A stretch of 64,000 bases of DNA. Origin: Microbispora bryophytorum (GTDB lineage: Bacteria; Actinomycetota; Actinomycetes; Streptosporangiales; Streptosporangiaceae). The translations under genes and the position numbers were made by a program. The notes under the pieces were generated by a model that had not been told where the DNA came from, did not search any database, and was given only the letters and a program-made list of their open reading frames with translations. The stretch is taken from positions 1 through 64,000 of the forward strand of contig NZ_VIRL01000008.1 in assembly GCF_006874465.1 (NCBI RefSeq), written 5' to 3'. Positions 20,297 through 33,645 of the stretch are shown here, piece by piece; positions within the stretch are counted from its first letter, which is position 1; each line of letters starts with the position of its first letter.

Positions 20297-20998
20297 CTAG
20301 GGCAGCGCGGCGACGAGCTCGCTGACCGGCTTGCGGGTGCCGGTGTAGAAGGGGATCTCGATCCTGGTGTGCCGCCTCGCCTCGGCTCCGCGCAGGTGGC
20401 GCATCAGGTCGACGATGCGGTGCAGTTCGTCGGCTTCGAAGGCCAGCATCCACTCGTAGTCGTTGAGCGCGAAGCAGGCGACCGTGTTGGAGCGCACGTC
20501 GGGGTACTCGCGCGCCATCTTGCCGTGCTCGGCGAGCATGCTGCGCCGCTCGGAGTCCTCCAGCAGGTACCACTCCAGGGACCGTACGAAGGGGTAGACG
20601 CAGACGAAGCCCCTGGGCTCCTCCTCGGCGAGGAAGGCCGGGATGTGGGACTTGTTGAACTCGGCGGGGCGGTGCAGGGCCATGGCCGACCAGACCGGCT
20701 CGCTCGCGCGCCCGAGGGCGGTGCGGCGGAAGCGGGTGTAGGTCTCCTGCAGGTCCTCGGCCGAGGAGGCGTGCCACCAGAACATGTAGTCGGCGTCGGC
20801 GCGGAACCCGGCCACGTCGTAGCAGCCTCGGGTCGTCACGTCCTTGCCCGCCGCCTGCGCGAGCAGTTCCTCGACCTCGCCGGCGACGCCCTCGCGGGCG
20901 GCGGGAAGCTGGTCGCGCAGCCGGAAGACCGACCACATCGTGTAGCGGATGACCAGGTTGAGATCGCGCGCCTTCGGCCGCGGGGCAGGCTCCGTCAT
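20297..20998 (-). CDS. hemQ: Coproheme decarboxylase HemQ (ChdC)
   Basis: A 233-residue member of the chlorite-dismutase/HemQ family. Typical stretches are '[12 protein letters not shown]', '[16 protein letters not shown]', '[16 protein letters not shown]', '[38 protein letters not shown]' and '[23 protein letters not shown]'. In actinobacteria it performs the last step of the coproporphyrin-dependent haem pathway: peroxide-driven decarboxylation of coproheme to haem b. Its start overlaps the stop of the upstream oxidase gene by four bases (ATGA). The two enzymes act in the same pathway and are translationally coupled. Confidence 0.94.
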
Positions 20999-22449
20999 GC
21001 CCCTATTCTGCCGGTGGGGGGTGGCGGTCCGGCCGCCGGGTGCTGTGTCTCCCGCAGGTGCTCCAGGACGAGCTTGGCGGCGGTGCGGGCGGTCGCGACG
21101 CAGGCCGGGATGCCGACACCCTCGTACGCCGCGCCGCAGACGGCGAGGCCGGGCTGCCCGGCGACCGCCGCGCGCACGCGGGCGATCCGGTCGAGGTGGC
21201 CCACGTCGTACTGCGGGAGCGCGCCGCCCCAGCGGGTCACCCGGGTGTCCAGCGGCAGGCCCCGCACCCCCATGATCTCGGCCATCTCGTTCAACGCCAG
21301 GGCGGTCAGCTCGGCGTCGTCACGCTGGAGTACGAGTTCCTCGCCCAGCCGGCCGACCGAGCACCGCACGATCATGACGTTGCGGTCGGCCTCGGCCAGA
21401 TGGGGCCATTTGACGCTGCTGAACGTCGCGGCCTTGACCGGCCTGCCCTCGACCGGCGGCACCAGGTAGCCGCTGCCCTCCGGGGGCTCGGGGAAGGCCG
21501 TGCGGGGATAGGCGAGGGTGACGATGGCCATGCTGGCGTACTCGATCGCGGCCAGTTCGGCCGCCGCCTTCGGCACCTCCCGCCGCAGCAGACGGGAGGC
21601 GGGCCGCGCGGGGACCGCCAGGACGACGGCGTCGGCGTCGATCACCTCCTCGTCCCTGGTGGGACCGGTGACCAGCCGCCAGCCGTCCGGCGTCCTGATC
21701 AGGTCGCGGACGGTGACGCCGGTGCGGATCTGCGCGCACGACTCCTTGGCCACCGCGGCGGGCAGCGCGCCCAGGCCGCTCCTGAGCGTGGTGAAGACCG
21801 GCCCGGCGTCCGCGGGGGCCTCCGCGGTGATGCTCCTGGTGGCCTGCAGCAGCGACCGCTCGGTGCGGGCGACGGCGGCGATCCGCGGCATGGTCGCGTC
21901 CAGCGACAGCATGTCGGCCCGGCCCGCGTACACGCCGCCGAGCAGCGGCTCGACCAGCCGGTCGACGACCTCGCTCCCCATCCGGGCCCGGATGTAGGCC
22001 GCCACGGACACGTCTCCGGTCACGAGCGTGGGCGGCAGGAACTGGTCGAGGGGCACCCGGGCCAGTCCGGCCGGCGACAGGACGCCCGAGCGCGCGAGGT
22101 CGACCACGTCCGAGGGGACGCCCATCACCTGCTGCCGGGGCAGCGAGCGCAGCGATCCGCGCGACAGGACCGAGGCCCGCGTGGTGCCGGGGTCCACCAG
22201 GTCGTCGCCGAGGCCGGCCAGCCGGGCCAGTTCCTTGCCCTCGGGCCGCCGCGCCAGCATCGACTCCGCGCCCGCGTCGACCTCCACCCCCGCCACCTGA
22301 GAGGCGTGCAGCTTGCCGCCGACTCTCGGCGCCGCCTCCAGCACCGTGATCCTCAGGCCGGCGTCGGCCCGGTTCAGGTGCAGCGCCGCGGCCAGACCCG
22401 CGATGCCCCCGCCGACGACGACCACATGACGACCCGCGTTCCCTTCCAT
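20995..22449 (-). CDS. hemY: Coproporphyrinogen III oxidase (HemY/CgoX type)
   Basis: A 484-residue FAD enzyme of the protoporphyrinogen-oxidase family. It has an N-terminal dinucleotide-binding motif ('[20 protein letters not shown]'), '[26 protein letters not shown]', '[10 protein letters not shown]', and the C-terminal '[25 protein letters not shown]' that closes the FAD site. In Gram-positive bacteria this enzyme oxidises coproporphyrinogen III to coproporphyrin III. It is upstream of and overlaps hemQ. hemE, which normally belongs to the same neighbourhood, lies 10 kb away beyond the Ebo-type island. Confidence 0.93.
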
Positions 22450-22616
22450 GGGGCAAAGCTACCGGCCCGTACGCCAGGGTCCCGCACCGGCGCGGTGCGT
22501 GTCCGGGACGAAGCAGGGCATGCCCGGCGCGAAGCGGGGAACCTCGCCGCCACCGAAAGGGAACGGCCAGTCACAGACGTAACATCAGCCTGCTAACCGA
22601 CAAGAACGCAAGATTC

Positions 22617-22670
22617 CTGGAAACTTTTAACATGCAGGGCAAAAAGTCTGGCTTTCTTGTAATAAAGTCG
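22617..22670. promoter_or_regulatory. AT-rich promoter/operator region of the ROK regulator
   Basis: This stretch is strikingly AT-rich for the window. It contains AACTTTTA (22621-22628), AAAAAGTC (22641-22648) and a TTGTAATAAAGTC run. The first two octamers recur in the promoter region of the Ebo-type operon. ROK regulators usually control their own gene, so these are candidate operators; binding is inference. Confidence 0.45.
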
Positions 22671-22732
22671 TTGCCGTCAGAGCAGAAGTAGAGTCACTTC
22701 TGGCACGCACCGATTCCCGACCGAAGAGTGGC

Positions 22733-23920
22733 GTGAAGCGAATGACGGCTCGCCCCGAGAACCCGCACCAGGCGCGGATCCTGCGCCTCCTGCGTCAGGA
22801 CGGCGCGCGCTCACGCGCGGAACTCGGCGAGGTGACCCGTCTGTCACCGTCGAAGCTCGCACTCGAACTCGACCGGCTGACCAAGCTGAACCTCCTCGAA
22901 TCCGGTGGACTCGCGGCCTCGCGGGGCGGTCGGCGGTCGGGCATCGTGCGGATCGCCTCACACCTGCGTTTCGTCGGCATCGACATCGGCGCCACGTCCA
23001 TCGACGTCGGGGTGACCAACGGCGAGCTGGAGGTGGTCGGCCATCTGTCGAAGCCCGCGGACGTGCGGGACGGCCCCGAGGCCGTGCTGGAGCAGGCCCT
23101 CGATCTCGTCGGCAAGCTGCGGACCGGCGAGACGACCGATATCCACGGCGTCGGGATCGGCGTCCCCGGCCCGGTGAGCTTCCTCGACAGGACCCCGGTC
23201 TCGCCCCCGATCATGCCGGGCTGGGACCGCTTCCCCGTGCGGGAGACGCTGAGCCGCGAGTTCGGCTGCCCGGTGCTCGTGGACAACGACGTGAACATCA
23301 TGGCACTCGGCGAGCTGCACGCGGGCCTCGCCAGGGCCGTCGGCGACTTCCTGCTCGTGAAGATCGGCACCGGCGTCGGCTGCGGCATCGTCGTCGCCGG
23401 CGAGATCTACCGCGGGGTGACCGGCAGCGCCGGCGACATCGGCCACATCCGGATCTCCGACGACGGCCCGCTGTGCACGTGCGGCAACACGGGCTGCCTG
23501 GAGGCGTACTTCGGCGGGGCGGCACTGGCCCGCGACGCCCGCGCCGCCGCGGACAGGGGCGACTCCCCCTTTCTCGCGGAACGGCTCGCGCACGAGGGAA
23601 CTGTGACGGCGCAGGACGTCGCCGCGGCGGCGGCCTCGGGCGACGCCGCCGCCGTGCGGATGATCCGCGAGGGAGGCCGGCACGTGGGCATGGTGCTGGC
23701 GTCGCTCGTGAGCTTCTTCAACCCCGGCCTGGTGATCGTCGGAGGCGGGCTGGCCGGCCTGGGCCACGCGCTGCTCGCCGAGATCCGCAGCGTCGTCTAC
23801 CAGCGCTCGCTGCCGCTGGCGACCGGCAATCTGCCCATCGTCTTGTCCGAGCTCGGCGACACGGCCGGGATCATCGGCGCGACCCGGCTGATCAGCGACC
23901 ACGTCTTCTCCGTCGAGTGA
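22733..23920 (+). CDS. ROK-family transcriptional regulator
   Basis: About 395 residues. An N-terminal winged HTH ('ARILRLLRQDGARSRAELGEVTRLSPSKLALELDRLTKLNLL', residues about 13-60) precedes a ROK sugar-kinase-like domain. That domain has 'FVGIDIGATSIDVGVTN', 'VGIGVPGPV', the ATP-type loop 'VKIGTGVGCGIVVAGEIYRG', 'GDIGHI' and the zinc-binding 'CTCGNTGCLEAYFGG'. Such proteins repress sugar or polyol genes and release DNA on binding a sugar. It is plus strand and convergent with the six-gene operon ending at 23986, separated by a shared terminator. Similar octamers upstream of both suggest control of that operon. The start could be GTG 22733 or ATG 22742. Confidence 0.88.
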   Translation: MKRMTARPENPHQARILRLLRQDGARSRAELGEVTRLSPSKLALELDRLTKLNLLESGGLAASRGGRRSGIVRIASHLRFVGIDIGATSIDVGVTNGELEVVGHLSKPADVRDGPEAVLEQALDLVGKLRTGETTDIHGVGIGVPGPVSFLDRTPVSPPIMPGWDRFPVRETLSREFGCPVLVDNDVNIMALGELHAGLARAVGDFLLVKIGTGVGCGIVVAGEIYRGVTGSAGDIGHIRISDDGPLCTCGNTGCLEAYFGGAALARDARAAADRGDSPFLAERLAHEGTVTAQDVAAAAASGDAAAVRMIREGGRHVGMVLASLVSFFNPGLVIVGGGLAGLGHALLAEIRSVVYQRSLPLATGNLPIVLSELGDTAGIIGATRLISDHVFSVE

Positions 23921-23943
23921 GCGCGCGGCCTTCGGACGCGGAA

Positions 23944-23974
23944 CGGCCGCCATCCCCCGCGGGGACGGCGGCCG
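23944..23974. terminator. Bidirectional terminator between the ROK gene and eboF
   Basis: Fourteen-base arms CGGCCGCCATCCCC and GGGGACGGCGGCCG with one A/C mismatch enclose a three-base loop, between the convergent stops at 23920 and 23986. Confidence 0.8.
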
Positions 23975-23985
23975 CCTTCACGATC

Positions 23986-25311
23986 TCAGCCCTTCAGTAG
24001 CTGCGTCAGCAGGCCCTTGACCTCGGTCGCGGCGTAGGCGTCCCGGTCGAAGGGGCCGAGCAGCACCGGCCCGTCCGCCGCCGCGTCGGGCAGGCGGCCG
24101 TGGCTGCCGCGCACCGGCTCCGGGTCGAGCGGCACCACGGACATCATGTAGCGCATGCCCATCTTCTTGCGGGCCAGCGCCGTGCCGGCCCGCAGTTTCA
24201 CGAACGGGTCGTTCGGATCCATGAACAGCTCCGCCGGGTCGTAACCGGGCTTGCGGTGGATCTCCACGAGCTTCGCGAAGTCGGGCGCCCGGTCGTCGGA
24301 CAGCCAGTAGTAGTAGGTGAACCACGCGTCCGGCTCCGCGACCGCGACGAGGTCACCGGCCCGCTCGTGGTCGAGGCCGTACTTCACCTTGCCCTCCTGG
24401 CCGAGCACCTCGTCCACGCCCGGCAGCTCGGCCACGATGTCCCGTACGCGGGGCAGGTCGGCCGTGTCGTTCACGTAGACGTGGGCGACCTGGTGGTCGG
24501 CGACCGCGAAGGCCCGCGAGGCCCAGGGGTCGAGATACTCCATGCCGTCCTGGGTGTAGACCTCCAGCAGCCCGGCCCGGCGCAGCGCGCGGTTGACGTC
24601 CACCGGGCGGGAGGCGTTGGTGATGCCGTACTCGGACAGCACGACCACGGTCGCGTCCTCCCGCAGCAGCGGCGCGAGCGCGGCGTCGACCTCCAGGGCC
24701 GCCGCGATGGCCTGGGGCGCGTCGGGCCCGAAGCGCTGCAGGTCGTAATCGAGGTGCGGGATGTAGACCATGAGCAGGTCGGGCCGTTCCTTCGCGAGGA
24801 TACGGCGGGCGGCCGCGATGATCCATTTGGACGAGGCGATGCTCGCGGTCGGCCCCCAGTAGGTGAACAGCGGGAACCCGCCCAGCTCGCCGACCAGGTC
24901 GTCGTGCAGCGACGGCGGCCTGGTGTAGCAGTCGGGCTCCTTGCGCCCGTCGGCGTAGTAGATCGGGCGCGGGGTGACGATGAAGTCGCTGGAGCCGCCC
25001 ATCGCGTACCACCAGCAGACGTTGGCGGTGCGCATCCCGGGCACCGCGTCCCACAGCTGCTCGCCCTGGATCAGCCGGTTGTGCTGCCGCCACAGGAAGA
25101 TCTCGCCCAGGTCGCGGAAGTACCAGCCGTTGCCGACGATGCCGTGGTCGCGCGGCATCGATCCGGTCAGCAGGGTGGCCTGGACGGAGCAGGTCACGGC
25201 GGGCAGCACGGGCCGCAGCGACGCGGCGGCACCGACCTTGGACACGTTCGGCATGTGCGCCAGCAGGCGCGGGGTCAGGCCGACGACGTTCACGACGACG
25301 ACGGGCGCCAT
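23986..25311 (-). CDS. eboF: EboF-type phosphodiesterase / nucleotide pyrophosphatase
   Basis: A 441-residue alkaline-phosphatase-superfamily protein. The nucleophilic threonine is in 'LPAVTCSVQATLLTG' (about residue 40), followed by 'RDHGIVGNGWYFRDL', the metal-site 'VYIPHLDYDLQRFGP', 'VVVLSEYGIT' and 'ADHQVAHVYVND'. The first strand reads 'VVVVNVVGLTP', with Asn where type I phosphodiesterases usually have the first metal-binding Asp. I recall this as a feature of Ebo members but cannot verify it. Last gene of the operon: its ATG shares one base with the upstream TGA, and AAGGAG lies inside the preceding gene. The substrate is unknown. Confidence 0.82.
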   Translation of the reverse strand: MAPVVVVNVVGLTPRLLAHMPNVSKVGAAASLRPVLPAVTCSVQATLLTGSMPRDHGIVGNGWYFRDLGEIFLWRQHNRLIQGEQLWDAVPGMRTANVCWWYAMGGSSDFIVTPRPIYYADGRKEPDCYTRPPSLHDDLVGELGGFPLFTYWGPTASIASSKWIIAAARRILAKERPDLLMVYIPHLDYDLQRFGPDAPQAIAAALEVDAALAPLLREDATVVVLSEYGITNASRPVDVNRALRRAGLLEVYTQDGMEYLDPWASRAFAVADHQVAHVYVNDTADLPRVRDIVAELPGVDEVLGQEGKVKYGLDHERAGDLVAVAEPDAWFTYYYWLSDDRAPDFAKLVEIHRKPGYDPAELFMDPNDPFVKLRAGTALARKKMGMRYMMSVVPLDPEPVRGSHGRLPDAAADGPVLLGPFDRDAYAATEVKGLLTQLLKG

Positions 25312-26432
25312 CAGATCTCCTTAAGTCCGAGGGCGGCGAGCCGCCGCCGGGTCCAGTCGAGCTCGGCCGCGATGCCCTCGGCGATGTCCACCGGGCCGGG
25401 CAGCACGCTCCATGTGTAGGTCTCGACCTCGAGGTGCCGAGTGAGGGGGGCGGCGAGGCCCCCGTCCGGGATCATGAGCCGCCCGAGCAGCTCCTCCAGG
25501 TAGGGAGCCGTCGTGGTGAGCGGGGGCGGGGGCGCGGCGTGCAGCGGCATGTGGAAGTGCGTGCGCCAGGGCAGGTCCGCCGGGAGCCCGCCCGCCAGCG
25601 CCTCCGGCAGGTCGTCGGTGTAGCCCGCCGCGCAGCGCGTCTGGTGGAGATACCGCTCCTCCACGTACGCCGCCAGCGCCTGCTGGCCGCCCGGCGGCGC
25701 CTCCACGGCCGAGGAGACCTGGAGCTTGACGATCGGCAGCCCCAGGGCCGCCGCATCGGCGGCCTCCTCCAGGCCGACGGCCAGATGGCAGGCGTCCAGG
25801 CAGACGCCGAGGTGCACGGGGTCGGCGCCGCCGAGCAGCGCCACCGCCTGCGGGGTGGTCTCCACGACGCAGCCCGGCTCGGGCTCGAAGCCGACCCGGA
25901 TCGTCTTGCCGGTGCGCTCCGCCAGGGCCCGCAGGCCCCGGGCGAGCACGGTCAGGTTGGCGTTGACGGCCGCGGCCTTGGCCGGCGTCCAGCCGGTGCG
26001 CCAGGCGAGGGGCAGCGTCGAGATCGAGCCCTCGGTCACGTCGTCGGGCAGCAGCGCGGTGAGGATCTCGGCCAGGTCGAGGGTGTAGGCGAGCCGTTCC
26101 GGTTCCGCCCAGTCGGGCCGGTAGACCCGCAGTTTCACGACCTCGTCGTGGAAGCCGCCGTACGGGAAGCCGTTGAGGGTGACGACCTCGAGCCCCTGCT
26201 CGTCCAGCCGGGCACGCAGCCGGGCGAGCTTGGCGGGGTCGTCGCGCAGCGCCCGGGCGGCGCGGCGCGACAGCCACAGCCCGAGCCCGAGCCGCCCGGC
26301 GCCGCTCAGCGCGCGGATGCGGGCGGCGACCCCGGTGAGCTGCTCGTGGATTCCCGCCAGGTCCTCGGCGGGGTGGACGTTGGTGCAGTACGCCAGGTGG
26401 ACGACGGACCCGGAGGGGTGAAGCAGGCGCAT
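25311..26432 (-). CDS. eboE: EboE-type metabolite traffic protein (xylose-isomerase-like TIM barrel)
   Basis: A 373-residue TIM-barrel protein. It starts 'MRLLHPSGSVVHLAYCTNVHPAEDL', the characteristic opening of EboE. It continues with 'GLEVVTLNGFPYGGFHDEVVKLRVYRPDW', 'IRVGFEPEPGCVVET', 'HLGVCLDACHLAVGLEEA' and 'WRTHFHMPLH'. The Glu, Asp and His residues in these blocks match the metal site of AP-endonuclease-2/xylose-isomerase-like barrels. Ebo proteins are implicated in moving a biosynthetic precursor to the periplasm in cyanobacteria; the reaction of EboE is not known. It begins two bases after the EboB stop and runs directly into eboF. Confidence 0.85.
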   Translation of the reverse strand: MRLLHPSGSVVHLAYCTNVHPAEDLAGIHEQLTGVAARIRALSGAGRLGLGLWLSRRAARALRDDPAKLARLRARLDEQGLEVVTLNGFPYGGFHDEVVKLRVYRPDWAEPERLAYTLDLAEILTALLPDDVTEGSISTLPLAWRTGWTPAKAAAVNANLTVLARGLRALAERTGKTIRVGFEPEPGCVVETTPQAVALLGGADPVHLGVCLDACHLAVGLEEAADAAALGLPIVKLQVSSAVEAPPGGQQALAAYVEERYLHQTRCAAGYTDDLPEALAGGLPADLPWRTHFHMPLHAAPPPPLTTTAPYLEELLGRLMIPDGGLAAPLTRHLEVETYTWSVLPGPVDIAEGIAAELDWTRRRLAALGLKEI

Positions 26433-26434
26433 GG

Positions 26435-27277
26435 TCAGCGCGTCCCGCGCAGGATCGTGTTGCCCTCGTAGTCGCCGCCGGACTCGACGTCGTCCAGGGC
26501 CAGGCGCCCGCTCTGGCCGTAGAAGGCGACGGGGTTGCGCCACAGCACCCGGTCCACGTCGTCGTCGGTGAACCCGGCGGCCAGCATGGCCTCGCCGACC
26601 TCTCGGGTCTTCAGCACGTCGCTGCGCCCCCAGTCGGCGGCGGAGTTCACGATCATCCGCTCGGTGCCGTACTCCTTGAGGATCGCGACCATGCGGTCCG
26701 GGTCCATCTTGGTGTCGGGGTAGATCGAGAAGCCCATCCAGCAGCCGGCCTCGTGGACCATGCCGACGGTCAGCTCGTTGAGGTGGTCGACCAGCACCGT
26801 GCCGGGGTCCATGCCCTTGACCACGTCGAGCGTGCGGCGGGTCCCCGCGGCCTTGTCGCGGTGCGGCGTGTGCACGAGCACCGGCAGGCCGTGCTCCTCG
26901 GCGAGTGCGAGCTGGGCCTCGAAGACGCGGTCCTCCTCCGGCGTCATCGAGTCGTAGCCCACCTCTCCGACGGCGACCACCGAGTCCTTCAGCAGGTAGC
27001 GGGGCAGCTCGTCCAGCACGCCCACGCAGCGCGGGTCGCCGGCCTCCTTGGGGTTGAGCGCGAGCGTGCAGTGGTGCCGGATGCCGTACTGCGCGGCGCG
27101 GTAGGGCTCCCAGCCCAGCAGCGAGTCGAAGTAGTCGAGGAAGCTCCCGACGTTCGTGCGCGGCTGGCCGAGCCAGAAGGCGGGCTCCACGACGGCCCGG
27201 ACCCCCGCGGCGTACATGCGCTCGTAGTCGTCGGTCGTGCGGGATGTCATGTGGACGTGGGGATCGAAGATCCGCAT
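26435..27277 (-). CDS. eboB: EboB-type TatD-family metal-dependent hydrolase
   Basis: A 280-residue amidohydrolase-like TIM barrel. The first metal motif is 'MRIFDPHVHMTSRT' (HxH). Also visible are 'VVAVGEVGYDSMTPEE' with the bridging Glu, 'LPVLVHTPHRDK', 'VLVDHLNE' and 'MIVNSAADWGRSD' with the final Asp. 'AVVEPAFWLGQPRTNVGSFLDYF' is typical of the Ebo branch rather than of DNase TatD. The ATG at 27277 lies five bases after the eboA stop. It probably hydrolyses a small ester or amide in the Ebo pathway; the substrate is unknown. Confidence 0.85.
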   Translation of the reverse strand: MRIFDPHVHMTSRTTDDYERMYAAGVRAVVEPAFWLGQPRTNVGSFLDYFDSLLGWEPYRAAQYGIRHHCTLALNPKEAGDPRCVGVLDELPRYLLKDSVVAVGEVGYDSMTPEEDRVFEAQLALAEEHGLPVLVHTPHRDKAAGTRRTLDVVKGMDPGTVLVDHLNELTVGMVHEAGCWMGFSIYPDTKMDPDRMVAILKEYGTERMIVNSAADWGRSDVLKTREVGEAMLAAGFTDDDVDRVLWRNPVAFYGQSGRLALDDVESGGDYEGNTILRGTR

Positions 27278-27282
27278 CGGAA

Positions 27283-27786
27283 TCAGAGCCTCTCGAGAAC
27301 GTCGGGGGGAACGGTGCGCCCGGCAGCGCGGCGCTCGGCGGCGAAGTCGGCGAGCATGCGCCGCAGGTCCTCGTCGAACCGCCGGTCGAGGCCTTCGACC
27401 GACGCGAGCGGGACGGACATGAAGACGCATTTGAGCACGCCCTGCCGGAAGGCGTGGTCGTCCAGGCAGGCCGAGCCGTACGGGCCGAGCGCGGCGGCGA
27501 CCAGCCGGGTGTCGTTGGCCCGCAGGGCGTCGTGGACGAGCGGGAGAGCGGCCGGACCGAGGTCGAGCTGCGGAAGCGACTCCAGGATCTCCAGCCGCTC
27601 CCCCGCGTCGCCCTGCCAGTAGAGCTTCATGACGGCCGCCGCGGGGTCGGGCAGGGCCTTCGCCAGCGCGCCGAGCAGCTCGGCGCGGGCGCCGGGGCCG
27701 CCCTCCCGCACGGCCCGTGGAAACAGCGCGTAGACGGTCTCCGGGTCGCGCTCAACGTCGGCTACGGCCCGCGCCAGCCAGGTCAT
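27283..27786 (-). CDS. eboA: EboA-domain protein
   Basis: A 167-residue all-helical protein without signal or membrane segment. The segment 'VLKCVFMSVPLASVEGLDRRFDEDLRRMLADFAAERRAAGRTVPPDVLERL' is, in my judgement, the diagnostic C-terminal block of EboA proteins. The helices before it ('FPRAVREGGPGARAELLGAL') resemble HEAT-like repeats. The ATG at 27786 has GAGGAGGG four bases upstream. The gene overlaps the end of the upstream isomerase by 35 bases. EboA has no known catalytic activity and may be a structural part of the metabolite-traffic complex; that is inference. Confidence 0.82.
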   Translation of the reverse strand: MTWLARAVADVERDPETVYALFPRAVREGGPGARAELLGALAKALPDPAAAVMKLYWQGDAGERLEILESLPQLDLGPAALPLVHDALRANDTRLVAAALGPYGSACLDDHAFRQGVLKCVFMSVPLASVEGLDRRFDEDLRRMLADFAAERRAAGRTVPPDVLERL

Positions 27787-28603
27787 GTGCCCTCCTCAGG
27801 AATTCGATCGACCTTCGCGCCACCTCGGGCGCCGCATGGCTGTGCCTGGCCAGCTCGACGGCGACCAGCCCGCCGAAGCCGTCGAGGGCGGCGAGCACGG
27901 GCGGGAAGTCGATCTCGCCCTCGCCGAACTCGAGATGCTCGTGGACGCCCCGCCGCATGTCCTCGATCTGCACGTGCACCAGGTGCGGCAGCGCCCGCTC
28001 GACGCACTCGGGCACGTCGTACGGCTCCAGGCAGCGGCAGTGCCCGATGTCGAGGGTGAGGCCGAACCTCGGGTGCCCGCCGAGCAGGTCGCGCAGCCGT
28101 TCGTATCCGGCGAGGTCCGCCACGAGCATGCCCGGCTCGGGCTCGAACCCGAGCGTTACGCCCACCTCGTCGGCTTCGGAGAGCAGGCGCTCGCAGTGCC
28201 GTACGAGCCGGTCCCACGCCTGGTCCTCGGACACCCCGGGCGGCCGGATACCGCTCCACAGGTGCACCACGGGGGCGCCGAGGTCGGCCGCGACCCGCAT
28301 GGCCCTGCGCAGGAAGTCCACCCGCGCCTCGGCCTCGTCGTGCAGCAGGGTCGGGAAGTGCTTGCGCCGGGGGTCGAGTGTGTAACGGCCGCCCGTCTCC
28401 ACGGCGAGGGCCAGGCCGAGCCGCCCCGCCAGCGCCGCGATCCGCCCGGCCTCCGCGGGGGAGGCCCCGGGCATGAGGTGCCCGTGGTCAAGGGTGACCG
28501 CCGCACCGGTGTAGCCGAGGTCGGCGAGCACCTCCAGCGTCTGGTCGAGCGGATGGTCGCGGAAACCGTTGGTGCAGTAGGCCCAGTTCACAGGCACGCT
28601 CAC
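27752..28603 (-). CDS. Sugar-phosphate isomerase/epimerase-like TIM barrel
   Basis: A 283-residue AP-endonuclease-2-like barrel. It has 'VNWAYCTNGFRDHPLDQTLEVLADLGYTGAAVTLDHGH', 'VVHLWSG', 'VTLGFEPEPGMLVADL', 'GLTLDIGHCRCL' and 'HVQIEDMRRGVHEHLEFGEGEIDFP'. These are the conserved metal ligands (Glu, Asp, His, Glu) of the sugar-phosphate isomerase/epimerase family. The opening 'WAYCTNGFRDH' parallels the 'LAYCTNVHPAEDL' of EboE, so the two barrels in this operon look like related paralogues. I start at GTG 28603 behind GAAGGCGG. The upstream inositol-phosphate-synthase-like gene ends 37 bases away. Confidence 0.85.
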   Translation of the reverse strand: MSVPVNWAYCTNGFRDHPLDQTLEVLADLGYTGAAVTLDHGHLMPGASPAEAGRIAALAGRLGLALAVETGGRYTLDPRRKHFPTLLHDEAEARVDFLRRAMRVAADLGAPVVHLWSGIRPPGVSEDQAWDRLVRHCERLLSEADEVGVTLGFEPEPGMLVADLAGYERLRDLLGGHPRFGLTLDIGHCRCLEPYDVPECVERALPHLVHVQIEDMRRGVHEHLEFGEGEIDFPPVLAALDGFGGLVAVELARHSHAAPEVARRSIEFLRRAHDLAGAGRSRR

Positions 28604-28640
28604 GACGTGGCCGCCTTCGCCGCCGGCCGCCGGCCGGCCC

Positions 28641-29783
28641 TCACGGCCGTCCCTCCGACAGGGCCTTCGCGAACGCCACAAGCCGGGCGTACTGGGTGGG
28701 CAGGTCGTGCCCTGCGCCGCCCAGCGGGTCCTTGAAGAAGTAGCCGAGCTCGGGGAGCACGCCGCTGTGCCCGGTCTCGTGGGCCCGCGCGACGAGCCGC
28801 ACGAGATCGAGAACGAGCGGGGCGGCGAGCGCCGAGTCGCAGCCCTGCCAGGTGAACTGCATGGTCATCCGGACGCCGAGGAATCCCTCGAACGTGACGT
28901 GGTCCCAGGCGGTCTTCCACTCGCCGAGGTCGGCCACGTAGTCGATGTGCGTCAGGCCCTCGACGTCCTCGCCCACGATCGCGGGGACGGCCCGTGCCTT
29001 GCTCGCCGACTTGCTCTCCCTCGCCGCCGGGTCGGCCAGCGTGGCGCCGTCGCCGCCGCCGAGGAGGTTGAGCCCCGACCACGAGCGGACGCGCAGCGCG
29101 CGGCCGGCGAACATCGGCGCGAGCGCGCTCTTGACCAGCGTCTCCCCGGTCTTGCCGTCGCGTCCCGCGTACGGCAGGCCGCTGCGCCGGGCCAGCTCGT
29201 CCAGCGCGGGCGGCGTCGGGCCCGCGGAGGGGGTGAACGCGACGTAGCCGCACCCGGCCGTGAAGGCCGCGTAGGCGTACAGGGAGCTGGCGGGCAGCAC
29301 GTCCCGGCCGGACGCGAGCGCCTCCTCCAGGTCGGCGAGCGTGGCGTACGGCACCTCGGCGGGGGGCTCGGTCGACGACACGTCCACCACGACGACGCGG
29401 GTCAGGCGGTGCCTGTCCCGGAAGTCCGCGATGTCGCCGGCCAGCCGCCGCGCGGCATCCGCCTGGCTCTCCTCGCCGGGAACGTAGCCGTGCCTGATCT
29501 CGGCCTGCGCGGCGTCGAGGTCGGCGGCGAGCAGGGTCGCCAGGACGGGAGGGAGCACGCCCGCCTGCGTGAGGAGCTCGGCCCTCTTGCGCAGCGGGGT
29601 GGTGACCACGTCGTGACCGCCGAACACCAGGTCGCCCAGGGGGGTGAAGTCTCCCGGGAAGCCCGCGGCCTCGATGACACAGCCGGTGGGCGGGGCCGCT
29701 CCCGCGCGCACCGCTGCCGCCCCGACGACCGCGGTGGTCGCGACGGACCCCCGGGCGCCGACCAGCCAGACACCGATGGGCAC
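28641..29783 (-). CDS. Inositol-3-phosphate-synthase-like protein
   Basis: A 380-residue NAD-dependent protein of the myo-inositol-1-phosphate synthase superfamily. It has an N-terminal 'GVWLVGARGSVATTAVVGAAAV', 'TRVVVVDVSSTEPPAEVPYATL', 'YAYAAFTAGCGYVAFTPSAG', 'RDGKTGETLVKSALAPMFAGRALRVRSWSGLNLLGGGDG', 'SKSASKARAVP' and 'HIDYVADLGEWKTAWDHVTFEGFLG'. The block 'DGKTGETLVKSALAPMF' holds catalytic lysines of the family. It is first in the operon, with GTG 29783 behind GGGAGAG. A true synthase converts glucose-6-phosphate to inositol-3-phosphate. As an Ebo-cluster member it may act on a related polyol phosphate; that is inference. Confidence 0.87.
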   Translation of the reverse strand: MPIGVWLVGARGSVATTAVVGAAAVRAGAAPPTGCVIEAAGFPGDFTPLGDLVFGGHDVVTTPLRKRAELLTQAGVLPPVLATLLAADLDAAQAEIRHGYVPGEESQADAARRLAGDIADFRDRHRLTRVVVVDVSSTEPPAEVPYATLADLEEALASGRDVLPASSLYAYAAFTAGCGYVAFTPSAGPTPPALDELARRSGLPYAGRDGKTGETLVKSALAPMFAGRALRVRSWSGLNLLGGGDGATLADPAARESKSASKARAVPAIVGEDVEGLTHIDYVADLGEWKTAWDHVTFEGFLGVRMTMQFTWQGCDSALAAPLVLDLVRLVARAHETGHSGVLPELGYFFKDPLGGAGHDLPTQYARLVAFAKALSEGRP

Positions 29784-30171
29784 GGCAACTCTCCCGTCAA
29801 CTCGGGGTATGCAGGGTGACATGGAACATTTGGATAGTAAGAGGCATCTTTCGTCACTGACAAGCAAAAGCTTCCCGTTGGCTACTAAAAGTTCACTCAC
29901 CTGCACGGGGCCGGCCCGGGGGTACGGCGGCCACGGCCGCACCCGCCCCTCGCCACTCCTCCCGCATCCTCGGACTTTGTCCTTCAAAGGTGGAAAGGTC
30001 AAAAGATCATGAAGTGACTTCTTCCCTGACGGGAAAAAGTCGCGTAGCTTGCTCGACACGTGCTCCGCACAGTCACCAGGTGGCCAGAGTGAGGCGAACG
30101 GCGGAGTCACCAGCGGAGCGGCCGCGTCATCGGGGGATCAGGTCCTTCACGCAGATGGAGCTTTCTAGACG
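29784..30171. promoter_or_regulatory. Divergent promoter region of the Ebo-type operon and the Tat isomerase gene
   Basis: This 388-base gap is AT-rich in two blocks. Near the operon it contains ACTAAAAGTTC (29884-29894), the reverse complement of GAACTTTTAGT. Near the plus-strand gene it contains TTCAAAGGTGGAAAGGTCAAAAGATCATGAAGTGACTT and GGGAAAAAGTCGCG (about 30031-30044). AACTTTTA and AAAAAGTC also occur upstream of the ROK gene. No coding frame here looks real. Confidence 0.55.
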
Positions 30172-31320
30172 ATGAGTGCGTACGAAGAAGAGATGGACAC
30201 GGCCGGTCACCTCGGACGCAGGCTGGGGCTCAACCGGCGCCGGTTCCTCGCGGCCACGACCGGCATGGCGGCGGTCGCCGCCGTCGCCGCGGCCGGTCCG
30301 CTGAAGTCGGCCGCGCAGGCGGCGACCGCGGGTAAGGGGCCGAACGGCATCCTGGTCCCGCCGCCGCGGCGCGGCATCATCCTGTACACCGTCCGCGACG
30401 CCATCTCCCGCGACCCGCTGTCCAGCAACCTCCCGTCCGGCTTCCGCGCCGTGCTGGAGGAGCTCGGCCGGATCGGCTACGCCCAGGTGGAGTTCGCCGG
30501 CTACAGCCAGCACGGCAACGCCGAGGGCGGCGCCAACCTGGAGACCGTCGAGGGCGCCCGCCTGCTGCGCCGCTGGCTGGACGACAACGGCCTGGTCGCC
30601 CAGGGCAACCACGGCTTCATCCCCGGCTCCTGGCCGCTGAGCCAGGCCGACCTGGACCGCTTCAAGCTCCACCTGGAGATCGCCGACATCCTCGGCATGA
30701 GCCACGTGGGCACCGGCAGCGACCCGACCGGCAGCGCCTACAAGGCCGACTGGGACGTCGCCGCCGACAAGTGGAACGCGCTGGGCGAGATCGCCACCGC
30801 CGCGGGCCTCAAGCTGTACACGCACAACCACGACGTGGCCTACAGCTTCCTGCTCGACAGCGGCCCGCTCGACGCGCAGGGCCGGCCCACCCGCTCCTCC
30901 GGCATCCGCCGCCTGGAGTACTTCCTCCAGAAGACCGACCCGAAGCACGTCTGGCTGGAGATGGACATCTTCTGGGCCCACGTCGCGCAGTACAAGTACA
31001 AGACCTTCACCGCGTCCGACGGGTCCACCCAGACGCAGGTCTTCAACCCGCTCGGCGTCGTGCAGGCGCAGACCATGCGGTTCCCGCTGTTCCACGCCAA
31101 GGACGGGAAGATCAACACCGGGACGTCCAACGGCTACGACATGGTTCCGTTCGGCACCGGTGACATCGACTACGCGGCGTTCTTCCGCGGCACGGGCGCC
31201 AAGGGCTACCACAACCCGATGTACGAGCAGGACAACGCCCCCGGCGACGCGTCGCACCAGGGCCAGTCCCTGCAGTACGCGGACCTGAGCTACCGGAACA
31301 TGTCCGCTCTGCGCGGCTGA
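30172..31320 (+). CDS. Tat-exported sugar-phosphate isomerase/epimerase-like protein
   Basis: A 382-residue protein. Residues about 19-50 form a twin-arginine signal ('LNRRRFLAATTGMAAVAAVAAAG', then 'AAQAA'). The mature part is an AP-endonuclease-2-like TIM barrel: 'RGIILYTVRDAISRDP', 'LEELGRIGYAQVEFAGYSQHG', 'LVAQGNHGFIPGS', 'LKLYTHNHDVAYSF', 'HVWLEMDIFWAHVAQ', 'FPLFHAKDGK' and 'DYAAFF'. The His, Glu and Asp residues of the metal site are visible. Export by the Tat route implies folding with a metal in the cytoplasm. It is divergent from the Ebo-type operon and shares its promoter region, so the substrate may be the exported Ebo product. A 16-bp-stem terminator follows. Confidence 0.87.
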   Translation: MSAYEEEMDTAGHLGRRLGLNRRRFLAATTGMAAVAAVAAAGPLKSAAQAATAGKGPNGILVPPPRRGIILYTVRDAISRDPLSSNLPSGFRAVLEELGRIGYAQVEFAGYSQHGNAEGGANLETVEGARLLRRWLDDNGLVAQGNHGFIPGSWPLSQADLDRFKLHLEIADILGMSHVGTGSDPTGSAYKADWDVAADKWNALGEIATAAGLKLYTHNHDVAYSFLLDSGPLDAQGRPTRSSGIRRLEYFLQKTDPKHVWLEMDIFWAHVAQYKYKTFTASDGSTQTQVFNPLGVVQAQTMRFPLFHAKDGKINTGTSNGYDMVPFGTGDIDYAAFFRGTGAKGYHNPMYEQDNAPGDASHQGQSLQYADLSYRNMSALRG

Positions 31321-31431
31321 CGACCTCACTGAGCATGGCGGCCCCGCCACGCGTCCGACCTGTTCCACCGGCGCGCGGCGGTCCGCCTTCCCCGCCCGGG
31401 CCCACGGGCCCGCACCCCCACCCCCCGCAGA

Positions 31432-31481
31432 GGCGCCGGCGATCACGGCGGCATCGTGATGCCATCGTGATCGCCGGCGCC
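31432..31481 (+). terminator. Strong terminator after the Tat isomerase gene
   Basis: A perfect 16-bp stem GGCGCCGGCGATCACG / CGTGATCGCCGGCGCC has an 18-base loop that can itself form CATCG/CGATG-like pairs. It marks the right edge of the Ebo-type island. The rest of the 195-base gap shows no gene. Confidence 0.88.
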
Positions 31482-31515
31482 GAACTGTGTTCATCGGTGA
31501 GCCGATGTAAAGAAC

Positions 31516-32604
31516 ATGAGGCGAATCCGGTACGGCGCGGCGGCCCTGGCGGCCGTCGCCTTTCTGTTGACGGGGTGCGGCGGCTCGGGCGAGTCCAGCA
31601 GCGACGCGGCCGGCAGCGTCGCCGCCACCATGGCTCCGGCCGGACGGGCCGACACGGCCGGGGCCGCGGATCAGAGCAGGGAACGGGCGCCCGCCACGGG
31701 CGGCGCGGGCGACGGGCAGGAGAAGACCAGGCTCGACCCGTCCGACCGGGCGATCATCTACCAGGGCGAGCTCACCGTCGAGGCCAAGGACGTCACGGCG
31801 GCGTCCGACCGCGCGAAGGCGATCGTGACGGGCGCGGGCGGGTACGTCGCCGAGGAGCGCAGCGAGTCCGTCCCCGGCGGCGTCCAGTCGATGATCGCGT
31901 TCAGGGTGCCCCCGGCACGCTACGCCGACGTCCTGGCCCAGCTCGGACGCGACCTCGGGGAACGCACGTCGGTGCGGCAGAACGCGCAGGACGTCACCGA
32001 GGAGGTCGCCGACGTCGCCAGCCGGGTGAAGTCGGCCGAGGCCACGCTCGGGCAGTTCCGCACGCTGCTGTCGAAGGCGAACAAGATCGGCGAGATCCTC
32101 GAAATCGAACGGGAGATCTCCAGCCGCGAGGCCGATCTGGAGTCGCTGCAGGCCAGGCAGAAGGCCCTGGAGGCGCAGACCGGCATGGCCACGGTCACGC
32201 TCACCCTCGTGCCCGCGCTGCAGCCCTCCGCCCGCCCCAAGGACAAGGAGGACGCGACCGGCTTCCTCGCCGGGCTGCGCGCCGGGTGGGACACCCTGAC
32301 CGCGTCGACCGTGATGGCGCTGACCGTGCTGGGCGCGCTGCTGCCCTGGATCGTCGTGGCCGGTGTGCTGTGGCTGGCCGTCCGGATCGTCATGCGCCGG
32401 ATGCGCCGCCGCGCCGCCCCGCCGGCCGGTCCCGTGCCCCCCGGCTCCGTCCCTCCCGGGCACGGGCCCGGTTTCCCCGCGGGTCCGCCGCCCACGGGCG
32501 GCCCCGCCGGGCAGCCGCGCCCCGGCTCACCGGAGCAGGCTCCCCGCGAGGGCCGGGACGAGAACCAGGATCAGAGCCGGGAATCCGAGCGCACCCCGCG
32601 GTAG
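31516..32604 (+). CDS. DUF4349-domain lipoprotein
   Basis: A 362-residue lipoprotein. The signal peptide ends in a lipobox 'LLTGCGG' (Cys at about 19). A Ser/Ala-rich linker is followed by the DUF4349 domain ('IIYQGELTVEAKDVTAASDRAKAIVTGAGGYVAEE', residues about 85-240). That domain contains a long coiled coil ('VKSAEATLGQFRTLLSKANKIGEILEIEREISSREADLESLQARQKALEAQ'), then one membrane segment ('VMALTVLGALLPWIVVAGVLWLAVRIVM') and a cytoplasmic Pro/Gly-rich tail. The function of DUF4349 is unknown; topology suggests an envelope scaffold. It is convergent with hemE, ending three bases away. Confidence 0.88.
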   Translation: MRRIRYGAAALAAVAFLLTGCGGSGESSSDAAGSVAATMAPAGRADTAGAADQSRERAPATGGAGDGQEKTRLDPSDRAIIYQGELTVEAKDVTAASDRAKAIVTGAGGYVAEERSESVPGGVQSMIAFRVPPARYADVLAQLGRDLGERTSVRQNAQDVTEEVADVASRVKSAEATLGQFRTLLSKANKIGEILEIEREISSREADLESLQARQKALEAQTGMATVTLTLVPALQPSARPKDKEDATGFLAGLRAGWDTLTASTVMALTVLGALLPWIVVAGVLWLAVRIVMRRMRRRAAPPAGPVPPGSVPPGHGPGFPAGPPPTGGPAGQPRPGSPEQAPREGRDENQDQSRESERTPR

Positions 32605-32607
32605 CGC

Positions 32608-33645
32608 TCAGCGGGCCGACGACGCGTGGACGAAGTCGGTGAGCCGGGCGAGCTGGTCGGGGTCGGTCGAGGGAAGCACGCCGTGGCCGAGGTTGAACAC
32701 GTGCCCCTCGGCCACCCGGCCGCGTTCGAGCACGTCCCTGGCCCGCCTCTCTACGACCTCCCAGGGCGCGAGCAGGATCGCCGGGTCGAGGTTGCCCTGC
32801 AGCGCCTTGCCCGCGCCCACGCGCAGCGCGGCCTCGTCGAGCGGCACCCGCCAGTCCACGCCCACCACGTCGGCGCCGGCCTCGCCCATGAGGCCGAGCA
32901 GCTCGCCGGTGCCGACGCCGAAGTGGATGCGCGGCACGCCGAGGTCCGCCAGGCCGGCGAAGATCTTGCCGGTGTGCGGCAGCACGTAGGTGCGGTAGTC
33001 CTGCGGCGCGACCGCGCCCACCCACGAGTCGAACAGCTGGACGGCCGAGGCCCCCGCCGCCACCTGCACACGCAGGAAGGCGAGCGTGATCGCGCCGAGC
33101 CGCTCCATCAGCTCGTGCCACAACTCGGGCTCGCCGTACATCATGGCCTTGGTGCGGTCGTGGTTCTTGGAGGGCCCGCCCTCGATCAGGTACGACGCGA
33201 GCGTGAACGGCCCTCCGGCGAAGCCGATCAGCGGGATACCGCCCAGCTCGGCGGTCAGCGTGCCGACCGCCTCCGTCACGTAGGAGACGTCGTCCGGCTC
33301 CAGGGGGCGCAGGACCTCCATGCCCGCCTTGTCGCGGATGGGGGTCCCGACGACCGGCCCGACGCCCGGCTTGATGTCGAGGTCGACGCCGATGGCCTTG
33401 AGGGGGACCACGATGTCGCTGAAGAAGATCGCCGCGTCCGTGCCGTACCTGCGGACCGGCTGCATGGTGATCTCGACCACGAGGTCGGGGGTGGCGCAGG
33501 CGGTGAGCATCTCGACGCCCGCGCGCACCCTGCGGTACTCGGGCAGCGACCGCCCGGCCTGGCGCATGTACCAGACCGGCGTGTGCGGAACGGGCTCGCG
33601 CCGGCACGCGCGAATGAAAACGGAATCGTCGAGCTGGGGTTTCAC
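32608..33645 (-). CDS. hemE: Uroporphyrinogen decarboxylase HemE
   Basis: A 345-residue TIM-barrel enzyme with the hallmark '[16 protein letters not shown]', whose Arg residues bind substrate carboxylates. Also present are '[27 protein letters not shown]', '[18 protein letters not shown]' and '[25 protein letters not shown]'. It decarboxylates uroporphyrinogen III to coproporphyrinogen III, the substrate of the HemY oxidase at 21 kb. GTG 33645 is the start. It is alone on the minus strand here, with the operon partners hemY and hemQ separated by the Ebo-type island. Confidence 0.96.

Follow-up and report, generated by a model that had tools for sequence, protein, structure and literature searches.

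A conserved variant of the ebo operon in Microbispora bryophytorum and other Actinomycetota carries an inositol-phosphate-synthase-like gene in the place of eboD

The widespread ebo gene cluster (eboABCDEF) is found in Bacteroidota, Cyanobacteriota and the plastids of eustigmatophytes. Here we describe a variant of it in Microbispora bryophytorum (assembly GCF_006874465.1; 7.85 Mb in 137 contigs), located in the region 22617–31481 of a stretch of 64,000 nucleotides (contig NZ_VIRL01000008.1, positions 1–64,000; hereafter the window) that has a G+C content of 69–74% in steps of 4 kb. Six genes run on the minus strand from 29783 down to 23986. Neighbouring genes overlap or nearly abut, a packing that suggests a single transcription unit. 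The first gene (28641–29783, GTG start at 29783) encodes a protein similar to myo-inositol-phosphate synthase (MIPS; PF07994 152.9 bits and PF01658 110.4 bits, both above the cut-off) and stands in the place of eboD. It is followed on the same strand by a remnant of eboC, the gene of a UbiA-type prenyltransferase, consisting of 14 codons plus a stop in frame (28600–28644, recognised by alignment with the loci L051 and L053), and by an extra gene for a TIM-barrel protein similar to isomerases and epimerases that accompanies MIPS (27752–28603, GTG start at 28603; PF01261 129 bits), here called TIM. Then come eboA (27283–27786, ATG start at 27786), eboB for a TatD-like amidohydrolase (26435–27277, ATG start at 27277; PF01026 50.2 bits, cut-off 27), eboE for a TIM-barrel 'metabolite traffic protein' (25311–26432, ATG start at 26432) and eboF for a member of the phosphodiesterase/alkaline phosphatase superfamily with altered metal-site residues (23986–25311; PF01663 194 bits, cut-off 23). 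On the plus strand, a gene for a ROK-family transcriptional regulator (22733–23920; PF00480 206 bits) converges on the end of this row, and a gene for a TIM-barrel (AP_endonuc_2) protein with a Tat signal (30172–31320; PF01261 64.6 bits), the RR motif of which was recognised by eye, diverges from its start and has its promoter region (29784–30171) in common with ebo.

An earlier note on this DNA, made from the sequence alone, had described a six-gene Ebo island on the minus strand together with the converging ROK gene and the diverging Tat-exported barrel, and profiles and coordinates bear this out. The calls of EboA and EboE, set beforehand as a test, were confirmed by the models NF035938 (151.3 bits, cut-off 50) and NF035939 (384.9 bits, cut-off 250), respectively. 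The longer EboA_family model NF035937 gave 63.5 bits (cut-off 320), and no Pfam match was found for EboA. As a description of an Ebo set the note holds for EboA, EboB, EboE and EboF; eboC and eboD are missing, and both the 14-codon remnant and a second operon on contig C73 had been overlooked. The expected co-conservation was found in a synteny scan, in which the same gene order recurs across Actinomycetota, so that the island is not a chance grouping. It is a real, conserved variant of the known ebo cluster. Compared to the order MIPS, eboC, TIM, eboA, eboB, eboE, eboF, which lacks EboD, the window has six of the seven genes in order and eboC as a remnant. The island resembles canonical ebo clusters in that EboA, EboB, EboE and EboF are packed on one strand and in that the operons of relatives and the C73 copy include the gene of an EboC-type prenyltransferase; it differs from them by the MIPS-like gene in place of EboD, by the extra TIM barrel, located after eboC in intact operons, and by the deletion of eboC. 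Three annotated Streptomyces plasmids carry 'SCO3242 family prenyltransferase' clusters with an identical order of MIPS, the prenyltransferase, TIM, EboA, EboB, EboE and EboF; the prenyltransferase present there is missing in the window copy. A literature search on the SCO324x genes yielded nothing of use.

The exchange of the cyclase was followed in 159 loci, which were scanned with profiles made from annotated loci and the two M. bryophytorum operons. The 80 named loci are the best 80 of at least 588 confirmed ones, the loci L049–L088 were hand-picked from EboA places in 120 of 297 genomes, and the plasmid loci stand for 19 of the 51 matching records. Three loci without EboB (L080, L086 and L087) were left out of the cyclase counts. 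Among the remaining 156, MIPS was found in 63, EboD in 70, neither in 23 and both in none, hence the two never occur together in the 133 loci with a recognised cyclase. Actinomycetota account for 59 loci with MIPS, one with EboD and eight with neither; outside this phylum, four loci have MIPS (three haloarchaeal plasmids and Gemmatirosa), 69 have EboD and 15 neither. Some of the loci with neither cyclase stop at a contig end and others show EboA and EboB alone; L057, L072, L114, L115, L123 and L193 were inspected individually. In actinobacterial ebo operons, MIPS takes the place of EboD.

The annotation of plasmids shows both situations. A '3-dehydroquinate synthase' is annotated by EboB in Azospirillum, Mycetohabitans, Salipiger, Roseivivax, Ketogulonicigenium, Aureibacter, Gloeothece and two Deinococcus plasmids, and an 'inositol-3-phosphate synthase' in three Streptomyces plasmids, Halocatena, Halobaculum and Natronococcus. 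The Haladaptatus stretch has neither cyclase annotated, and three more plasmid records are unannotated there. No EboD was found in the window operon in the profile scan of the locus. In a genome-wide profile search, the EboD-like model NF004852 exceeded its cut-off in none of 25 MIPS-type genomes, which were hand-picked (26 genomes in this search); it did so in G677, the single EboD-type actinobacterial genome searched. An EboD elsewhere in the M. bryophytorum genome was considered and rejected, the best NF004852 match reaching 180.7 bits at a cut-off of 333. A quick tree of EboB requires three changes between the labels MIPS and EboD, two of which are forced by starred branches (the MIPS-bearing actinobacterial branch has a support of 93 and is not starred); therefore, the swap probably occurred more than once. 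No published report of MIPS in ebo was found in our literature search, subscription papers lying outside of it.

The best solved relative of the MIPS-like protein is PDB 1u1i (2e-63), which we take to be the myo-inositol-phosphate synthase of Archaeoglobus fulgidus. The positions of the active-site residues Asn255, Lys274, Lys278, Lys306 and Lys367 (A. fulgidus numbering) were mapped in the window protein and do not vary among the 63 ebo MIPS proteins (an alignment without the MIPS from contig C43); variant PDB sequences have changed letters at three of the five. Judged by these residues, the ebo MIPS looks enzymatically active, and the polyol phosphate synthase of the earlier note finds support as a probable cyclitol phosphate synthase in the MIPS domains and the conserved active site. 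It differs from 1u1i in that the window gene lies in a biosynthetic operon with a predicted cyclitol product. The synthase of a five-membered cyclitol phosphate, 6k96, also belongs to the MIPS family (1.5e-15), hence the ring size is not to be assumed. Since the protein has the domains and the active site of MIPS, the gene might simply provide an ordinary extra supply of inositol for phosphatidylinositol or mycothiol and be clustered with ebo by chance. The M. bryophytorum genome has, however, a further MIPS gene on contig C43, the best of three matches and likely the housekeeping enzyme. A function of the window protein as the mycothiol enzyme was rejected at 40.8 bits against the INO1 model (cut-off 638), and the absence of any locus with both MIPS and EboD among the 133 would be inexplicable for an unrelated passenger. 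We consider an extra inositol supply very unlikely.

The accompanying TIM barrel follows the MIPS type. Strong matches occur in ebo loci with MIPS or where MIPS is missing, while EboD loci gave only weak ones (41–49 bits); L081 has MIPS without TIM. EboD-type sugar phosphate cyclases leave a ketone, and MIPS normally reduces the ketone; because of this difference, MIPS plus the extra TIM barrel probably replace EboD together. In TIM, the residues Glu163, Asp194, His197 and Glu259, to which we assign a metal role by assumption, are invariant in 11 proteins. Its best solved relatives are the uncharacterised MJ1311, L-ribulose-5-phosphate 3-epimerase, Art22, IolI and other sugar isomerases, a mixture from which no specific reaction can be deduced. 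In an alignment of 13 EboB proteins from five bacterial phyla and one archaeon, His7, His9, Glu106, His137, His168 and Asp218, presumably with a metal role as well, are invariant, and the identity to the Azospirillum protein ranges from 41 to 69% (59% for the window protein). EboF was compared to phosphonoacetate hydrolase, from which we took what we assume to be the six metal ligands of the superfamily. Ten EboF proteins from bacteria and archaea keep the nucleophile, Thr40, as an invariant residue; the Asp-His metal pair is Glu227-Tyr228 in all ten, the histidine of DxxxH is Gln in eight and Leu in two, and the presumed first Asp is variable, though this position lies outside the printed alignment. 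With metal ligands lost, a plain phosphatase step is doubtful.

The UbiA-type eboC gene is located directly upstream of TIM in all 11 congener loci of this operon type (L049, L051–L054 and L056–L061) and between MIPS and TIM in all nine of them with MIPS in view, L057 having no MIPS and L059 beginning inside eboC. In the window, about 0.8 kb of eboC is gone, and the residue consists of GTG, 13 more codons and TGA. This stub is in frame with both ends of eboC and retains the overlaps with MIPS and TIM. In the assembly, eboC was deleted in frame from the window copy. The many contigs and the very G+C-rich junction raise the alternative that the missing eboC is an assembly error; yet the junction keeps frame, start and stop and has its own substitution beside the breakpoint, unlike a collapsed repeat, and MIPS was lost from the same operon type in other genomes, likewise known from assemblies. 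We regard such an error as highly improbable.

Canonical EboC is thus absent from the window operon except for the 14-codon remnant, and intact in the copy on C73. This second, complete operon (L014, 5434–12454) has the order MIPS-eboC-TIM-eboA-eboB-eboE-eboF, and contains one of the five UbiA-family matches in the M. bryophytorum genome. Its prenyltransferase matches NF045897 (SCO3242 family) with 361 bits (cut-off 260) and the EboC model with 136 bits, under the cut-off of 250, which makes actinobacterial EboC a sister family. The proteins of the two operons share 54–74% identity per protein and their EboB proteins lie in different parts of the EboB tree, hence the two operons do not stem from a recent duplication. 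The window operon may work in trans with the eboC of C73.

Alternatively, the window copy might be a decaying duplicate, inactive since the loss of eboC, with the C73 operon alone functioning. The deletion, the complete second operon in the same genome and the loss of a neighbouring gene for a secreted glucose/sorbosone dehydrogenase (GSDH), which most congeners have, are in line with this idea, and so are the ratios of nonsynonymous to synonymous substitution rates (dN/dS) against six congeners of ROK (0.12–0.26, congener mean 0.10) and EboE (0.21–0.30 versus 0.20). On the other hand, all six remaining frames are open, the values of EboF (0.11–0.16, mean 0.14), EboB (0.09–0.19, mean 0.19) and MIPS (0.12–0.28, mean 0.20) are like those among congeners, and the unrelated neighbour HemQ is raised, too (0.05–0.18 versus 0.08). 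These ratios are blind to recent decay, and the eboC deletion may be too young. Taken together, we consider a decaying duplicate unlikely.

All 11 congener loci with this type of operon have the ROK gene next to the island; its helix-turn-helix matches PF12840 with 20.7 bits, under the cut-off of 27. In the window and nine congeners, the region between MIPS and the Tat barrel contains the hexanucleotide AACTTT 27 times and the region upstream of rok 19 times, compared to two occurrences in the remaining 183 kb. In either orientation the motif is present in both promoter regions in 10 of 10 loci. The 60 possible orders of its letters, AACTTT included, averaged 2.07 occurrences over these regions, and the second most frequent order had 10. 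The spacing recurs as well, with distances between sites of 21 or 22 bp at ebo and of 42 bp at rok. The window has a single exact site in each region, at 22622–22627 in the rok promoter region (22449–22733, plus strand) and at 29888–29893 in the divergent one. The strength of the motif comes from the comparison of congeners, since the window alone was unconvincing with four matches to GAACTTT versus 0.8 expected (AACTTTY: six versus 0.99). According to the accessible part of the report on CsnR, a ROK regulator of Streptomyces lividans, its operator contains GGAAACTTTCC (PMC4856308); the island sites in congeners read GGAAACTTTT and GAACTTTC. CsnR differs in controlling csn (chitosan) genes, and the likeness is known at the level of the ROK family. 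Because the operator-like repeats are shared, strongly enriched and similar to the published operator of CsnR, the ROK regulator, tied to the island already in the earlier note, probably controls it.

A pattern of paired AACTTT sites occurs at 15 places in nine of ten congeneric genomes, while the reversed control pattern had none. Seven of these places are at ebo and two are upstream of secreted GH10 (xylanase family) genes; one further place has the same 27 letters as the GH10 sites, its adjoining gene being unread. Four more places are located upstream of a gene for an esterase that includes a GH10 domain, upstream of a GSDH-CBM2 gene, upstream of the gene of a protein with a sub-threshold ThuA match, and by an FAD hydroxylase. 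AACTTT as a general actinobacterial ROK operator at ebo was rejected, the motif being confined to this operon type in the genus. At ebo loci elsewhere, another ROK gene is often found upstream, in one genus often together with a sugar ABC importer.

Recurrent neighbours of ebo are secreted proteins of the glucose/sorbosone dehydrogenase family with PKD and CBM6 domains, ThuA and 3-keto-disaccharide hydrolase proteins, and the Tat barrel. The less biased sample comprises 18 loci in 17 genomes besides M. bryophytorum, found among 396 genomes of the phylum. Within about 9.5 kb of these loci, GSDH was found at ten, ThuA at eight and DUF1080 at seven; 40 round-coordinate stretches of 16 ebo genomes served as controls and had none of the three. 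The Fisher value of 8e-7 for GSDH is nominal because loci of one lineage are not independent. Over all loci, GSDH is near ebo in 32 of 68 actinobacterial ones (23 of 51 outside the genus), and in the hand-picked genomes a homologue lies at most 9 kb from an ebo gene in 21 of 25, the others being M. bryophytorum, G155, G457 and G648. In relatives of the window copy, ebo is linked with GSDH and 3-keto-sugar enzymes. A search for literature on 3-keto-sugars with GSDH found nothing. In most congeners, a gene for a secreted GSDH-PKD-CBM6 protein of 1,100 residues is located between the Tat barrel and a DUF4349 gene; it is absent in the window (31320–31516) and in L054.

The earlier note had assigned the exported barrel to ebo as well, and here the picture is divided. 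Of the 11 congener loci, nine have the Tat barrel; L052 lacks it, and in one other it is out of view. Among the 25 genomes, 17 have a match; in 11 of these it is the sole match and lies beside ebo (four of the genus and seven of family f3), and in six, G119, G022, G100, G257, G500 and G458, it is away from ebo. That the barrel is a mere genus-level neighbour was rejected given the seven genomes of another family. The C73 operon adjoins a gene for a secreted GH10 protein that includes a ricin-lectin domain, and a CBM2-bearing GH30-like gene whose GH30 match is below the Pfam cut-off.

The accessible parts of the ebo papers predict an isoprenoid-cyclitol or the prenylation of an unknown substrate, with EboD as the cyclase (PMC5133447, PMC6282210, PMC6092422, PMC9235831), and the word inositol is absent from these parts. 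Actinobacterial EboA is described there as fused to a xylose-isomerase-like domain (PMC5133447), which probably corresponds to the TIM barrel of the MIPS-type operons. That a second, non-homologous enzyme fills the position of the cyclase gives independent support to the published cyclitol prediction. We propose that the actinobacterial operon MIPS-eboC-TIM-eboA-eboB-eboE-eboF encodes a pathway for a prenylated cyclitol, linked to the oxidation of sugars outside the cell, a proposal to which we give an even chance. The MIPS-like enzyme would take over the role of EboD and form a cyclitol phosphate, with glucose 6-phosphate as the probable substrate. The extra TIM barrel, EboE, EboB and EboF may tailor the ring and its phosphate, and the EboC-type prenyltransferase, presumably supplied in trans for the M. 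bryophytorum window copy, would yield a prenylated, membrane-associated cyclitol. In this genus, the ROK regulator, through the enriched AACTTT-type sites as putative operators, would control the operon, its own gene and the Tat-exported barrel. The product might then serve an extracellular sugar-oxidising programme of GSDH dehydrogenases, ThuA/3-keto-disaccharide hydrolases and the Tat barrel.

Different chemistry would follow if EboC-type enzymes prenylated aromatic or quinoline acceptors and the cyclase fed an aromatic ring pathway. The EboC relative Ubi-297 farnesylates 8-hydroxyquinoline-2-carboxylic acid in vitro; in the accessible part of that study, all 14 acceptors tried were aromatic (PMC9235831). 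The product of MIPS is a saturated polyol, however, and the module is devoid of an aromatising enzyme, making aromatic acceptors a highly doubtful solution. A further alternative regards ebo as a traffic machine by which other metabolites reach the periplasm on a prenylated carrier, with MIPS supplying only the head group of the carrier. In Nostoc, an ebo deletion strain had no scytonemin and its authors propose an export of the precursor, as stated in the accessible part of the report (PMC6282210). On a Streptomyces plasmid (L099), the gene directly upstream of ebo (4096–5298) is of the 'ScyD/ScyE family' and recalls the cyanobacterial scytonemin neighbourhood. The seven-gene module contains no transporter, though, and we consider a traffic machine somewhat unlikely; it is compatible with the prenylated-cyclitol pathway rather than opposed to it.

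Several observations weigh against the proposed pathway. The window copy itself has neither eboC nor a GSDH gene nearby, and outside Actinomycetota GSDH is near ebo in only six of 88 loci. GH10 genes show no clear enrichment, with 12 of 159 loci versus one of 40 controls. Upstream of MIPS in 34 other loci, two of which have only about 150 bases in view, AACTTT occurs once in 14.6 kb, the sites at the MIPS promoter being confined to this operon type in the genus. EboF departs from the pattern of two-metal phosphodiesterases and alkaline phosphatases, a nucleophile plus six ligands, and Ubi-297, the sole tested EboC relative in the accessible text, farnesylated quinolines (PMC9235831). Finally, MIPS is missing in four actinobacterial ebo loci (L057, L072, L123 and L193) that keep eboC, TIM, eboB, eboE and eboF, hence MIPS is not always needed in cis; EboA was not found in L123.

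If the prenylated-cyclitol pathway is correct, MIPS chemistry, with an inositol-type ring from glucose 6-phosphate, gives the ebo product a testable chemistry, and the GSDH linkage hints at growth conditions under which to seek the compound. The natural losses of single genes, eboC in the window and MIPS elsewhere, offer a way to see which steps can be supplied in trans. The MIPS-type operon may be switched on together with secreted sugar-degrading enzymes. As an extension, which we think rather unlikely at present, the ebo product would be a prenylated cyclitol and would serve secreted sugar-oxidising enzymes as a redox partner or carrier in the membrane or outside the cell, two unrelated cyclases, EboD and MIPS, having been recruited in different lineages for the same head group. 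This would explain the exchange of the cyclase genes next to constant EboB and EboF. Such a role would concern GSDH and 3-keto-sugar enzymes in Actinomycetota and might extend to the periplasmic scytonemin enzymes of cyanobacteria.

Individual loci show further arrangements. In L072 (7205–8113), MIPS is cut to about 20 residues in frame into eboC, adjoining a monosaccharide ABC importer, and such an importer is located alongside in L123, too. It would fit an uptake of the ring from outside and is only a lead because the same importer lies by ten loci of one genus, at least nine of which keep MIPS; no importer was seen alongside L057 and L193. The genome of L193 carries a second full operon (L194). 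The gammaproteobacterial metagenome-assembled genomes with L114 (5754–12470) and L115 (183–7180) have a TIM barrel at the operon start, related to the extra barrel of the MIPS-type operons, and neither EboD nor MIPS, which is possibly a third way to the ring. In L081 (G149:C46, 7348–11222), MIPS, EboA, EboB and EboE are in view and EboC, TIM and EboF were not found within 19 kb. The haloarchaeal plasmid loci L096, L210, L211 and L212 have EboB, two TIM barrels, an EboC-like UbiA protein and EboF, with EboA and EboE unrecognised; MIPS is present in three of these four sets and none is in view in L212.

In M. bryophytorum, a third, lone EboE-like gene is located on contig C48 (L015, about 1039–1974; 185 bits, below the cut-off of 250), adjoining an apparent end of a Clp ATPase gene, without other ebo genes nearby. 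The island itself is embedded in a haem neighbourhood (window 20297–33645), with HemQ-like and HemY genes on one side and HemE on the other, a flank that recurs in congeners.

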